Made by a program: the position numbers and the translations under genes | Notes under the pieces: generated by a model | What the model saw: the letters and a program-made list of their open reading frames with translations, nothing else | Told to the model about the DNA's origin: nothing | The model's database searches: none | Source of the DNA: a virus | Virus record (IMG/VR): IMGVR_UViG_3300035211_000046 | Span: 1 to 37,670 of that record | Length of the DNA stretch: 37,670 nt | Direction: 5' to 3' (one strand) | Shown here: positions 1,888-13,944 of the stretch, piece by piece | Layout of the letters: every line of letters begins with the position of its first letter | How positions within the stretch are numbered: the stretch's first letter is position 1

Positions 1888-2049
1888 ATGATAGTTAAAT
1901 TAAGAGAGGTTAACGGTGCTAAATATATGTTAATTAATAAACCATTAAGAGAAATATTGGGCATAGATAAAGAAGTTGAAATAAAAATTGAAAATAATAA
2001 TATAATAGTTAGTGCAATAAAGTCTGAAGACAAACAGAAAGAAAGGTGA
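1888..2049 (+). CDS. AbrB/SpoVT/MazE-type small DNA-binding protein
   Basis: 53 aa, ATG at 1888 behind a strong GGAGG site at 1876-1880. The short protein has the pattern of a swapped-hairpin AbrB fold: a basic first strand (KLREVNGAKYMLI), a helix-like turn (NKPLREILGI), then acidic-to-hydrophobic strands (KEVEIKIENNNIIV). Proteins of this class bind DNA as dimers and act as transition-state regulators or antitoxins. No toxin gene sits beside it, so a regulator is more likely than an antitoxin. Its stop overlaps the region of the primase start, so the two are co-translated. It is the first rightward gene after the palindromic promoter, which makes autoregulation an attractive but untested idea. 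Confidence 0.7.
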   Translation: MIVKLREVNGAKYMLINKPLREILGIDKEVEIKIENNNIIVSAIKSEDKQKER

Positions 2050-2054
2050 TGCAT

Positions 2055-4427
2055 ATGTTAAATATATCATATGACACAATTGTTAAATATAATAATTTAA
2101 TAAAAATAGATTCACTAAAAAATATGCCAAATAATTGGGTATTGTGGGGGCTTCAAGAAAAAAAGGATAAATTAACGAAGCCTCCAATAAACCCAAAAAC
2201 ATTGGGTTTAGCAATGAGTAATAATTCTAATACCTGGGCCGATTTTGAAACAACAAAATCGCAACAAATAAAAAATGTTGGCCGAGAAATAGAAAATAAT
2301 GGGAAAAAAACTATAATAGCCGGAATAGGTTTAATGTTACCGGGTACAAATTTAATATTTGGAGATATTGATAATTGTCTTGAAGATGGCAAATTAACAA
2401 ACACAGCAGAGGAAATTATTAATACTCTTAATACATATGTTGAAATTTCACCATCTGGAAAGGGATTAAGATTTGTCTTAATAGATGATGGAACATTTGA
2501 TAAATTTAGAGAATCTTTTAATTCTACCCATTATAAAAATAAAAATCCTCTGGAACATATTGAGATTTATTCTCAAAATGATAATAGGTATTGTACTTTG
2601 ACAGGCAATTCATATAATAATAATTTCAGTATTAATAATAATATGGCCATAAAAGAATTATATAAAAAGTTTTGGAAGAGACCGGAACCGAAATCATATT
2701 TTAATGTTAATTATAATACTGGAATTACTAATCTATCAGATCAAGAAATTTTTGATCTAATAATGAAGTCTAAAAATGCCAATAAATTTCAAGATTTATA
2801 TTACCAGCCCGGTCAAGATGGTAATAGCGAAGGAGATATGGCATTAGCGGCAATGTTGGCATTTTATACTAAAGATCATAGTCAGATTAAACGAATGATA
2901 ATAAACAGTTCAAGGAATCGGGATAAATTTAAAAAACATCCTACATACTTGGATAAAACAATAGAGACGGCCATAAATACCAGTAAAGGAAATTATGACC
3001 CGAACTATGGAAAAACTTATAATACAACGATAAATAATAATTGCTATGACAATAATATACGCAATGGAGATAATTGTCAACAATCAAAATCAAATAACCC
3101 TGTGGATAATGTGGATAACTTGGATTTAAAAAAAATTAAATGGCATCCTGACTTTTGTTTTGCTAAGATTGAAGTTATGACACCAGAAGGAAAATTAAAA
3201 AAGGTTTTAATTAGATTATCTGAGTTTTTTAAAAAATATCCCGATAAAGAAAGCCGGCCCAAAATGGTTGGCCTTGATATAATGCATGTTACGGAAAATG
3301 TGACATGTTTATTGAAGCATTATAACATTGTTTTAAAATACAATGTCATAAGAAATTCTTTTGATGTTTTTAAGGATGGTATTATTTCTAAATATAATTT
3401 AGAAACGTTTTTTGTAGAAATCCGGGATAAATGCGAAAAACATGAGTTTAACATTACTAAAGAGAAATTAACAGATATTTTAATTAAGATATCATTAGAT
3501 AATGAGTACAACCCCATAGAAGATTATTTAAAACAATCTTATCAATATTTTTTGGAAAATCCTGATAAAGATATTTTCTATAGATTAATGGATACTATAG
3601 AAAGTAATTCAGAGTGGAAAGAAAAATTTATCGGCAAATTTCTCTTACAAATGATATATTTAGTTTGTTCAGATGATGAAAGCCAAGCGGCAGCCGATTA
3701 TATGTTAGTATTGCAAGGCCCTCAATTTATAGGGAAAACTACTTGGCTAAGGAATTTATTGCCGGAAAAATTCCGGTCTAAATATTTCCTTGGTGGACGT
3801 ACTTTAGACCCTACAAATAAGGATGACAGGATTGAAACTCTGGCCAATTGGCTTGTCGAAATGGGCGAAATATCAAGCACATTCAGAAAAGCCGATCAGG
3901 AAGCTTTAAAAAATTTCATAACTGATTACAAAGATAAATTTAGGCTCCCATATGCTAAGGAAGCCATTGAGAGAAAGCGTAGGACTTCTTTGTGTGGGAC
4001 AACTAACGATAATGAGTATTTAAAAGACTTAACCGGGACTAGAAGATTCTTAACCCTCCATTGTAAGTCTTTTGACAAGGAAGCTAAGATTGATATTGAT
4101 ATGTTATGGGGTTATATGTATTCCCTTTATTTAAATGGTAAAACTTATAAATTTACTAATGAGGAAGTTATTAAGATCATGGATGATAATGAGGAATATA
4201 TAAATAAGCCTGAAAAATTATTAATGATTGAAGATACTTGGGATTTAAACCCGGCAGAAAATGAGGGCGAATGGCTGACAGGTGCAGAAATTTATTCTAG
4301 TCTATCAGATGACAGAGGGCTATTAAATAAATTCACAATAGGCCGGGAGCTGAAAAAAACTAAAATAAAAATTTTGAGAGATAAACACAGGAAAAAAGAT
4401 TTATTTTTTGTAAAATTAAAGGGCTAA
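2055..4427 (+). CDS. Primase-polymerase fused to VapE-type ATPase
   Basis: 790 aa from the ATG at 2055; in-frame starts at 2046 (GTG) and 2049 (ATG) also exist, but AGAAAGG at 2039-2046 is best spaced for 2055. The N-terminal third resembles NrS-1-like phage primase-polymerases: a WVLW...KPPINP entry, the acidic GDIDN motif (about 103-107), the SPSGKGLR loop (about 132-139) and the helical-bundle segment beginning SEGDMALAAML (about 258). After an Asn-rich linker, the C-terminal part is a virulence-associated-protein-E P-loop ATPase: Walker A GPQFIGKTT (about 555-563), NWLVEMGE, FRLPYAKE, GTTNDNEYL, DLTGTRRF. Such fusions prime DNA and load or act as the replicative helicase. It is followed by a terminator and the repeat-rich putative origin. 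Confidence 0.88.
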   Translation: MLNISYDTIVKYNNLIKIDSLKNMPNNWVLWGLQEKKDKLTKPPINPKTLGLAMSNNSNTWADFETTKSQQIKNVGREIENNGKKTIIAGIGLMLPGTNLIFGDIDNCLEDGKLTNTAEEIINTLNTYVEISPSGKGLRFVLIDDGTFDKFRESFNSTHYKNKNPLEHIEIYSQNDNRYCTLTGNSYNNNFSINNNMAIKELYKKFWKRPEPKSYFNVNYNTGITNLSDQEIFDLIMKSKNANKFQDLYYQPGQDGNSEGDMALAAMLAFYTKDHSQIKRMIINSSRNRDKFKKHPTYLDKTIETAINTSKGNYDPNYGKTYNTTINNNCYDNNIRNGDNCQQSKSNNPVDNVDNLDLKKIKWHPDFCFAKIEVMTPEGKLKKVLIRLSEFFKKYPDKESRPKMVGLDIMHVTENVTCLLKHYNIVLKYNVIRNSFDVFKDGIISKYNLETFFVEIRDKCEKHEFNITKEKLTDILIKISLDNEYNPIEDYLKQSYQYFLENPDKDIFYRLMDTIESNSEWKEKFIGKFLLQMIYLVCSDDESQAAADYMLVLQGPQFIGKTTWLRNLLPEKFRSKYFLGGRTLDPTNKDDRIETLANWLVEMGEISSTFRKADQEALKNFITDYKDKFRLPYAKEAIERKRRTSLCGTTNDNEYLKDLTGTRRFLTLHCKSFDKEAKIDIDMLWGYMYSLYLNGKTYKFTNEEVIKIMDDNEEYINKPEKLLMIEDTWDLNPAENEGEWLTGAEIYSSLSDDRGLLNKFTIGRELKKTKIKILRDKHRKKDLFFVKLKG

Positions 4428-10155: not shown

Positions 10156-10362
10156 ATGAACTTAATATCAGTAAGAAAAAATGTTTTACATACACAATAT
10201 AAAAACTGTTTATTATGTTTACATATAAAATATACCGTATTTTATATAATAAGCCCTTGGAAGTATAAAAATTTTAAAATATGTTTATTTACAGATGATA
10301 TAAAATATGGATTTTACAGTAATAAGCATATTGATTTTGAAATTAGAAAGGAATTAAAATAA
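10156..10362 (+). CDS. Hypothetical protein
   Basis: 68 aa, ATG at 10156 directly after the previous stop and behind GGGGTGA, a ribosome site identical over about 19 bases to the one before 9288. Rich in aromatic residues and Lys, with three Cys (CLLC and a later C) and a beta-like pattern (YTVFYIISPWKYKNFKICLF). No domain is recognised. Coupled to the next gene (TAATG). Confidence 0.6.
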   Translation: MNLISVRKNVLHTQYKNCLLCLHIKYTVFYIISPWKYKNFKICLFTDDIKYGFYSNKHIDFEIRKELK

Positions 10363-10751
10363 TGAATGAATGGAAGAGACAAGAAAGAAATTATAATAGA
10401 TTTGTAACTATTATAGAAATTATAACTATTGTGTTTTTCATAATAGGACTAATATTCATAACAAATGGATTTGGTTTATTTGATAGATACATTTGGAAGA
10501 CTGGAAACGCTAAGATCGATCATGATGTATATAAAAATTCATCAAGCTATATTGATGGAAAAGTATCAATGTTAAGTCAGCAAAAAAGAGATTTTGAAAA
10601 GGCCGAAAGCATAGATAATAAGATCATAATTATTAATTATATTAAGGAAGAATTAGACAATTTCGATCTTGATGATATAGAAAATGAAAATTTAAAGAAA
10701 TTTGCTGAAGATATTTTTAATGGAAAATACGATAATTTGGAGGACAATTAA
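10362..10751 (+). CDS. Phage inner-membrane protein (paired with lipoprotein 2)
   Basis: 129 aa. Basic N-terminus, one transmembrane helix (about residues 15-35) ending in NGFGLFDRY, then a helical extracytoplasmic or cytoplasmic domain. The pattern V-Y-x-N-S-x-S-Y-x-x-G...L...R-x-x-F-x-x-A (residues about 56-82) resembles, from memory, a widespread phage membrane protein with an F-E-N-T-x-S-Y-x-x-G signature that often sits next to a lipoprotein gene. The neighbour here is indeed a lipoprotein, starting on the base after this stop. The function of that pair is not established; exclusion of other phages or membrane remodelling is a guess. Confidence 0.7.
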   Translation: MNEWKRQERNYNRFVTIIEIITIVFFIIGLIFITNGFGLFDRYIWKTGNAKIDHDVYKNSSSYIDGKVSMLSQQKRDFEKAESIDNKIIIINYIKEELDNFDLDDIENENLKKFAEDIFNGKYDNLEDN

Positions 10752-11330
10752 ATGAAAAGATTAATATTATTATTTATAATAGGTTTGATATTTTTATCTG
10801 GCTGTAGTACAACAGATGTTAATGCCGATACAAAGCAAACCCAAAAACAGGAAGAATTAGAAAAAGAAATGAGAGCCAAAATAGGAGACCCAGAAATTAC
10901 GGAGTTTTGGGAAGCTCAGAACTATAATAAAATTATGGAGAAAAGAGATAATCCCAAATTAATTTGTTATTGGTATACTAAAAATGAATATACTGGAAAA
11001 TATATTTATGAGGGTCAATGTTCAGGATTCGGAGTGCCTTATTCAACACAAATTAGTAATCCTGAAAAAATAGTTCAAGGTGACAAAGAATTAGGCTATG
11101 ATTTATCAGGATATGTAAATTATCCTATGAGTAAACCACAGGCAGAACCAAATGGCTTATATATGCCAACAAGTTCATCGGCTACATGGGTTTTAGTATA
11201 TGACCCAAAAACAAAGGAATCAAAAGTCGAATATGTAGAGCATTTAATAAGTGTTACCGAAATAAAAAAACGTCCTGAATTATGCGAAAAAGATTCCTTG
11301 CCAGATAATTACTTGCAATTAAAACCATGA
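10752..11330 (+). CDS. Putative lipoprotein 2 (phage lipoprotein family)
   Basis: 192 aa. Signal LILLFIIGLIFLSGC with the lipid-modified Cys at 18. The mature part contains CYWYTKNEYTGKYIYEGQC, then GFGVPYSTQISNPEKI and PQAEPNGLYMPTSSSATWV. From memory these match a phage lipoprotein family with G-x-G-x-P-Y-x-T-Q-x-x-N-P and L-P-Q-A-D-P-N-G-L-x-M-P motifs, usually encoded beside a small membrane protein as here. Role not established. The preserved motifs argue for conserved function at the cell surface or membrane. Its stop overlaps a possible ATG at 11327, but the likely next start is at 11396. Confidence 0.75.
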   Translation: MKRLILLFIIGLIFLSGCSTTDVNADTKQTQKQEELEKEMRAKIGDPEITEFWEAQNYNKIMEKRDNPKLICYWYTKNEYTGKYIYEGQCSGFGVPYSTQISNPEKIVQGDKELGYDLSGYVNYPMSKPQAEPNGLYMPTSSSATWVLVYDPKTKESKVEYVEHLISVTEIKKRPELCEKDSLPDNYLQLKP

Positions 11331-11395
11331 TAAAAGCAAAATTAATTTATGATCTTGGGTATTATGCCCCATATGTTGAGAGGAGATATAGAAAA

Positions 11396-11653
11396 ATGGA
11401 TAACTGGAAGGTTAAACTATTAACCGATACAATGCAAAGCATGACAAATATTAGCCCGGATGAAGATAAAATATTAAAAATTGAAGATTTGAGGATGGAT
11501 TTTAAAAATCTATCTTCAAAAATAATTAATTTGGGAAATCATCCCGGAAATACTACACTATCAATAAGGCATTTAGAAGATGCTTTATATAGGGCATTGA
11601 AATCAATATTAATGGAGGTTCCAACTGTTGAACAGTCAAAGAAAGAAATTTAA
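11396..11653 (+). CDS. Acb2-like small helical protein (candidate anti-CBASS sponge)
   Basis: 85 aa from ATG at 11396, behind GAGAGGAG (11379-11386); an in-frame ATG at 11327 would add 23 residues but has no ribosome site. The central 50 residues follow the pattern of the Acb2/T4 Vs.4 family as I remember it: ISPDEDKILKIEDLR, then a helix to a Pro-containing turn (NHPGNTTLS), then a second helix with the LExA...A...I layout (IRHLEDALYRALKSIL). Family members form small hexamers that bind cyclic di- and trinucleotides and so silence CBASS signalling; some also bind Thoeris signals. Length fits (about 80-100 aa). Similarity is by eye, so the assignment is a candidate. Sits in a block of tiny early genes, where such proteins are usual. 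Confidence 0.55.
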   Translation: MDNWKVKLLTDTMQSMTNISPDEDKILKIEDLRMDFKNLSSKIINLGNHPGNTTLSIRHLEDALYRALKSILMEVPTVEQSKKEI

Positions 11654-13098: not shown

Positions 13099-13944
13099 AT
13101 GGCATCAATTGGTGGAATACCCTATTATTCAAAACAAATAAAGTATAATAGAACTGCAATAAAAAGAACTAAGAAAGATATCAAAGCAATTGTGGTTCAT
13201 TATACAGCCAATTACAACAATGGTGCTGGCGGTGCTAAACATTTTGAATATTTCAATGGTGCAGACAGAGACTCGTCTGCTGATGTATTCATTGATGACC
13301 ATTCAATATGGAAAATTAATGATTGGTTTAATTATTATAGTTGGGCCATAGGTGACGGAAAGGGTCGCTATGGTTGGACTAACTCGAATACTATTTCAAT
13401 AGAAATGTGTGTCAATAAAGACGGTAATTTCAATAAAATGATTGAAAATACCATAAAATATATTAGATATTTACATTCGCAAGGTTACACTAAGACGCTT
13501 ATAAGACATTATGATGCTTCAAGAAAATTGTGTCCTATTTATTTCGTAGATTTAACAATATCGGGATATAATAAAGCATATACAGACTTTAGAAATAAAG
13601 TCTTTAAAAAGGAGGATACTAAAGTGGCTAAAAACATTTTTGATTATGCAAGTTTAAAATGGTTACATGAAAAAGGATTTATAAAAGGTACAGATTATAA
13701 TTCAAGTAAGCAATTTAATTGTGAACAAATAGCTATTATATTGCAAAGATTGTATAAGGATTTAAACCCAGATGCACAAGAACCGCCAAAAGGTAATATT
13801 TATACAAATAAAAATCTTCAATGGTTATATGATATAGGCTTTATAAAAGGTAAAAAATACATGTCTACTAAAGAATTGAGCTATTTTAATTGTGAACAGA
13901 TAGGGACTATTTTAAAAAGATTGTATGAAGATTTAAAATCATGA
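13099..13944 (+). CDS. Endolysin, N-acetylmuramoyl-L-alanine amidase
   Basis: 281 aa, ATG at 13099 with GAAAGGTAG upstream. Residues 20-165 form an Amidase_2 domain: zinc ligands H34 (VVHYTAN), H137 (RHYDASR) and C145 (KLCP), with SADVFID at 60-66 and ISIEMC at 99-104. It cleaves the amide between muramic acid and the stem peptide. Residues 182-280 hold two repeats of about 40 aa, each L-x-W-L...G-F-I-K-G...F-N-C-E-Q-I...I-L-x-R-L-Y-x-D-L, a likely cell-wall-binding module. An internal GGAGG and GTG start at 13624 (residue 176) lies exactly at the domain linker. There is no signal peptide, so release depends on the holin. Confidence 0.92.
   Translation: MASIGGIPYYSKQIKYNRTAIKRTKKDIKAIVVHYTANYNNGAGGAKHFEYFNGADRDSSADVFIDDHSIWKINDWFNYYSWAIGDGKGRYGWTNSNTISIEMCVNKDGNFNKMIENTIKYIRYLHSQGYTKTLIRHYDASRKLCPIYFVDLTISGYNKAYTDFRNKVFKKEDTKVAKNIFDYASLKWLHEKGFIKGTDYNSSKQFNCEQIAIILQRLYKDLNPDAQEPPKGNIYTNKNLQWLYDIGFIKGKKYMSTKELSYFNCEQIGTILKRLYEDLKS
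13609..13626 (+). promoter_or_regulatory. Internal ribosome site making the free cell-wall-binding domain
   Basis: AAGGAGG (13609-13615), eight bases, then in-frame GTG at 13624-13626, inside the endolysin gene at the linker. Translation from here would give a 106-residue product (13624-13944) with both binding repeats and no amidase domain. Clostridial phage endolysins such as CTP1L and CD27L are known to use an internal start for a free binding domain that joins the full-length enzyme. The match in position and start codon is striking. Confidence 0.75.

Follow-up and report, generated by a model that had tools for sequence, protein, structure and literature searches.

A phage helical-hairpin protein distantly related to Acb2 and Tad1, with divergent ligand-facing residues

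A short open reading frame in the window, by which we mean the entire 37.7-kb viral contig analysed here (siphophage-like and of low GC, ~30%), was originally predicted to encode an Acb2-type cyclic-nucleotide sponge directed against CBASS. This locus raises the question of whether its product (hereafter the window protein) is an Acb2, a more remote relative built on the same hairpin, or a small helical protein that resembles Acb2 by chance. The gene itself, its relationship to the Acb2/Tad1 hairpin superfamily and the state of its ligand-facing residues were therefore examined, and their bearing on function was considered.

The hairpin gene and its surroundings

An 85-aa ORF, of the length originally predicted and preceded by a Shine-Dalgarno-like sequence of its own, is present on the plus strand (Table 1). 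The frame stays open upstream for 23 extra codons, to an ATG at 11327, and these codons correspond to the beginning of another gene, of 109 aa, which is whole in a related contig, L002 (IMG/VR 3300033291_000004). Through a deletion, the relic of this gene is fused in frame to the hairpin ORF, and it probably lies outside the protein. Since the homologous ORF of L002 starts at the equivalent point, with the codon GTG, and the upstream codons correspond to a separate gene there, the 85-aa protein is the likely product of the hairpin gene.

Table 1. Features of the hairpin locus, in window coordinates
Feature	Position	Strand	Basis
Window protein, hairpin, distant Acb2/Tad1 relative (ATG at 11396, stop ending at 11653)	11396..11653	+	ORF; PF24729 and phrog_1454 as top matches; dN/dS
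GAGGAG, Shine-Dalgarno-like, ~10 nt 5' of the start at 11396	11379..11384	+	Read from the sequence
In-frame relic MIKAKLIYDLGYYAPYVERRYRK of the 5' end of the 109-aa gene intact in L002	11327..11395	+	ORF and comparison with L002
Codon 18 (Asn), position of the ligand-stacking Tyr (Vs.4 Y8)	11447..11449	+	Alignment
Codons 19-46, turn I19-S20-P21-D22 and first long helix (23-46)	11450..11533	+	Alignments; model helix
Codons 50-72, second long helix with L60-E61-D-A63...A67...I71	11543..11611	+	Alignment; Vs.4 interface residues (PMC10097602); model helix

The copy in L002, with 94% identity, was the sole close relative found. The two genes differ by 17 synonymous and 7 non-synonymous changes, and the resulting dN/dS of 0.076, the lowest among the nine genes compared, indicates a conserved protein. 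The hairpin gene is thus a real and conserved one that is subject to purifying selection. The DNA flanking it has been exchanged on both sides between the window phage and L002, which fits an accessory gene located in a fast-changing segment. With respect to the host, the terminase and portal proteins of the window are nearest to those of phages of Blautia, Staphylococcus, Geobacillus and Clostridioides and of unnamed human gut phages (32-40% identity), suggesting that the host is likely a member of Bacillota; a search with the terminase against genome contigs returned no match.

Several additional features of the two contigs were noted. The cassettes upstream of the hairpin gene differ (10362-11395 in the window and 5398-6000 in L002), the window keeping only the first 20-odd codons of the 109-aa gene, and the lysin has been swapped at the same place (Amidase_2 at 13099-13944 in the window, Amidase_3 at 7545-8264 in L002). 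On the minus strand, opposite to the rest, 375-1793 encodes a superfamily 2 helicase of 472 aa that contains a zinc ribbon, and the adjoining gene is that of a VapE/NrS-1-like replication protein (2046-4427); as for many phage helicases, the profile of this helicase is related to those of defence-system helicases. In addition, the 320-aa phrog_29668 protein encoded at 6750-7712 matches LmuB weakly in PADLOC (E=4e-4) and has no Pfam family.

Relationship to the Acb2/Tad1 hairpin superfamily

The best Pfam family for both copies was PF24729 (Acb2_Tad1_hairpin), with 14.0 bits (E=0.059) for the window protein and 16.7 bits (E=0.0087) for the L002 copy. The profile comparison pointed to the predicted family, but neither score reached its curated cut-off of 27 bits. 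Likewise, phrog_1454 was the best PHROG for the window protein (E=9.8e-4) and for the L002 copy (E=9e-5). The match of phrog_1454 to Vs.4 of T4, a proven Acb2 and cGAMP sponge (PMC10097602), is similarly weak (E=7.1e-4). The same PHROG matches, at E=7e-32, gp102 of mycobacteriophage BigBubba, which was published as a protein that sequesters cyclic nucleotides (PMC11953737), and, at E=3e-32, a protein from a phage of Paenibacillus.

An independent profile was built from 68 Gram-positive-type hairpin proteins of viral contigs, with the known Proteobacterial Acb2s left out. Against this profile Vs.4 scored 14.9 bits, the L002 copy 12.4, Vibrio D70 11.0 and the window protein 10.2, followed by a Rhizobium phage protein (7.5), an Erwinia phage protein (6.4) and the PaMx33 Acb2 (-0.4), while the best of 20,000 shuffles gave 8.9 and the reversed window protein -1.7. 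Among 6,081 ORF stretches from all loci gathered, only known members and the L002 copy outranked the window protein. In the opposite direction, a search with the window protein alone distinguished the ORFs of the family from 6,004 other ORFs with an AUC of 0.95 (0.975 for the L002 copy); its reversed sequence reached 0.62, and three shuffled versions 0.53-0.77. Judged from these comparisons, the likeness to Acb2 is weak yet more than chance.

A profile made from seven very diverse members gave the window protein 2.1 bits and decoys up to 12.2, with no separation from shuffles, and hhalign with a shallow profile returned P=0.0067 and a probability of only 5.7%. For these reasons the evidence for the relationship is good, not overwhelming. 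Under an alternative hypothesis, the window protein is a small helical hairpin of phage origin with no kinship to Acb2, and its heptad-like pattern came to resemble that of Acb2 by convergence or chance; two-helix folds are of low complexity, and the seven-member profile, the unreached Pfam cut-off and the lack of a significant fold match (see below) would all agree with such an origin. However, the window protein outscored its shuffles, its reversed sequence and thousands of genuine ORF stretches, the family was favoured in both the query and the reverse searches, and the colinear match is gapless and takes in the loop before helix 1 (P21, K28, R33). We consider this hypothesis rather improbable.

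When the window protein was searched directly, no relative emerged from phages, plasmids or 84,980 genomes. A scan made with the combined alignment turned up no bridging sequence, and neither NCBIfam nor PADLOC yielded a meaningful match to the window protein. Two candidates were rejected: an IMG/VR match in L020, a short wrong-frame stretch within a 245-aa gene, and a match in the Vibrio 1.121.O phage, which overlaps a different 116-aa protein.

Predicted hairpin and ligand-facing residues

The two-helix pattern with a central proline turn that had been proposed was also predicted here, with two long helices (~23-46 and 50-72) joined by the turn N48-H49-P50. A first model, based on the two close sequences, had a pLDDT of 63 and placed a helix at 3-19 and a hairpin at 23-46/53-73. 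A second, with 35 family members added to the alignment, reached a pLDDT of 79, with values above 90 through most of the hairpin; because it contains family sequences, this model leans on the assumed relationship and is not independent. The secondary structure of both fits a short N-terminal helix followed by two long helices, at a pLDDT of 63 in one case and with a family-informed alignment in the other. The fold comparison, in contrast, gave no support to the original prediction, as Foldseek found no significant match with either model; Vs.4 chains were among the many non-significant matches of the second (E ~4-5).

The models also bear on a ribbon-helix-helix antitoxin or FitA-like DNA-binding protein, which is suggested by a weak Pfam match to PF22513 (E=0.11). 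This match spans only 16 residues and is absent from the L002 copy, no beta-strand is predicted, and no toxin gene was recognised among the neighbours scanned, so that such an identity seems very improbable.

The Gram-positive-type PF24729 proteins (phrog_1454; for example those of Paenibacillus phages Halcyone and Dante, BigBubba gp102 and that of the Faecalibacterium phage FP_oengus) share the size class and hairpin register of the window protein. The alignment with them is gapless over 57-59 residues (15 to 73), with 10-19 identities, or only 17-32% identity across the aligned stretch. The kept residues are P21, R33, K37, S/A56, L60, E61, A63, A67 and I71, R33 and L60 being invariant in the Gram-positive-type alignment. 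The LExA...A...I ending named in the original prediction, in which a gapless match across about 50 residues was noted, is found in place, as L60-E61-D-A63...A67...I71. In contrast, the window protein lacks the F-x-Y-H of the subfamily, including Tyr18 (N) and His19 (I), as well as Gln25 (K), the SRE motif (50-52), Thr58, Trp66, Asn68 and Arg73, and it is extended at the N terminus and ends in a charged tail. At the ligand-stacking position 18, where the window protein has N, 97% of the aligned Gram-positive-type members have Y.

In Vs.4, residues of the hexamer interface (A66, A73, A77 and L29) and of the ligand site (Y8, K23, S74, R79 and F82) have been described (PMC10097602), and they were transferred to the window protein through our own alignment. 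By this correspondence, the small interface residues A66, A73 and A77 are represented by S56 (A in L002), A63 and A67 (S in L002), and L29 by L39. Most ligand residues of the Acb2 pocket are changed: basic charge is kept at two ligand contacts (R33 for K23, where the Gram-positive-type family also has its invariant R, and K69 for R79), but the aromatics are lost, and Y8, S74 and F82 are replaced by N18, L64 and L72. As the interface positions are kept and the ligand residues changed, the assembly scaffold looks retained and the known base-stacking mode does not. Divergence of the ligand-facing residues is what is unusual about this protein.

Vs.4 of T4 (PDB 7UQ2) consists of a short N-terminal helix and a long hairpin, as predicted for the window protein, and in the alignment of the two EEKIGKVNAIK lies against EDKILKIEDLR. 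The PaMx33 Acb2 (phrog_717) and Acb2 homolog 43 (PDB 9PTQ), the latter the best PDB match for the combined alignment, have the same overall hairpin by alignment. Neither gives a direct pairwise match with the window protein, and the PaMx33 Acb2 itself matches neither phrog_1454 nor the Gram-positive-type profile. Tad1 (CbTad1, PDB 7UAV/8SMD) has its hairpin domain, which belongs to the same Pfam family, at the C terminus; compared with Tad1, the window protein is much shorter, with 85 aa and no strands in either model, and is without the N-terminal beta domain.

Possible function and distribution of the family

Taken together, these results suggest that the window protein should be filed as a distant Acb2 relative and not as an Acb2. 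A superfamily relation is indicated by PF24729 and phrog_1454 as top matches and by a score near that of Vs.4, but a clear Acb2 identity is at odds with a score below the cut-off, the loss of the stacking Tyr and most near-invariant residues, and the lack of a significant fold match. We favour, with moderate confidence, the explanation that it is a divergent member of the Acb2/Tad1 hairpin group, most likely a counter-defence sponge with a remodelled site. Such a protein would fold into a short helix at the N terminus followed by a hairpin of two helices, would most likely self-assemble through small-residue helix faces as Acb2 does, and would most likely be made on infection as a stoichiometric sponge; by binding a defence second messenger, it may block CBASS-type or Thoeris-type effectors. 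The hexamer, the nucleotide binding, the identity of the ligand and the anti-defence role are what we infer for the window protein, and canonical Tyr stacking is probably not how a ligand is held. More tentatively, the site of an Acb2-scaffold sponge may have been rebuilt, without the stacking Tyr, SRE and the W-N motif, for a signal that differs from the known ligands of Acb2 and Tad1.

The main rival is that the window protein descends from an Acb2/Tad1-scaffold hairpin which has lost nucleotide binding and taken on a new job, as an assembly adaptor or a binder of a phage or host protein; chance similarity is less likely than this. Loss of binding would account for scaffold positions that are kept while nearly all polar hallmarks of the family and the stacking Tyr are gone, and the strong purifying selection means that some function has been kept. 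However, the proven sponge Vs.4 gives a match to the Gram-positive-type subfamily that is only a little better, and basic residues persist at two of the Vs.4 ligand contacts. Thus, we regard loss of binding as possible but doubtful. If the window protein bound a nucleotide without the canonical stacking Tyr, the Acb2 scaffold would be seen to tolerate a rebuilt pocket, which would point to a signal missed by current sponges; if it bound nothing, it would illustrate how the scaffold of a sponge comes to be reused.

The expectation that this protein would extend the family to a phage of a low-GC Gram-positive proved wrong. Matches already exist in 59 Paenibacillus records and in Brevibacillus and Faecalibacterium phages, the two Paenibacillus proteins tested exceed the PF24729 cut-off (86-96 bits), and the Gram-positive-type form of the hairpin is carried by hundreds of viral contigs. 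Tad1, moreover, has been described in a prophage of Clostridium botulinum (PMC11722364). Since the Paenibacillus, Brevibacillus and Faecalibacterium phages already have members, Acb2-type hairpins are widespread in phages of low-GC Gram-positives, and this protein adds nothing new to the host range.

For anti-defence work, the larger resource is this wider Gram-positive-type hairpin family, which is partly misannotated. In several records, clear Acb2_Tad1_hairpin genes (789-1004 of L022, and those of Paenibacillus and Brevibacillus phages such as Halcyone, Xenia and Jenst) are labelled 'phosphomannomutase', a misannotation that hides a widespread candidate anti-defence family.
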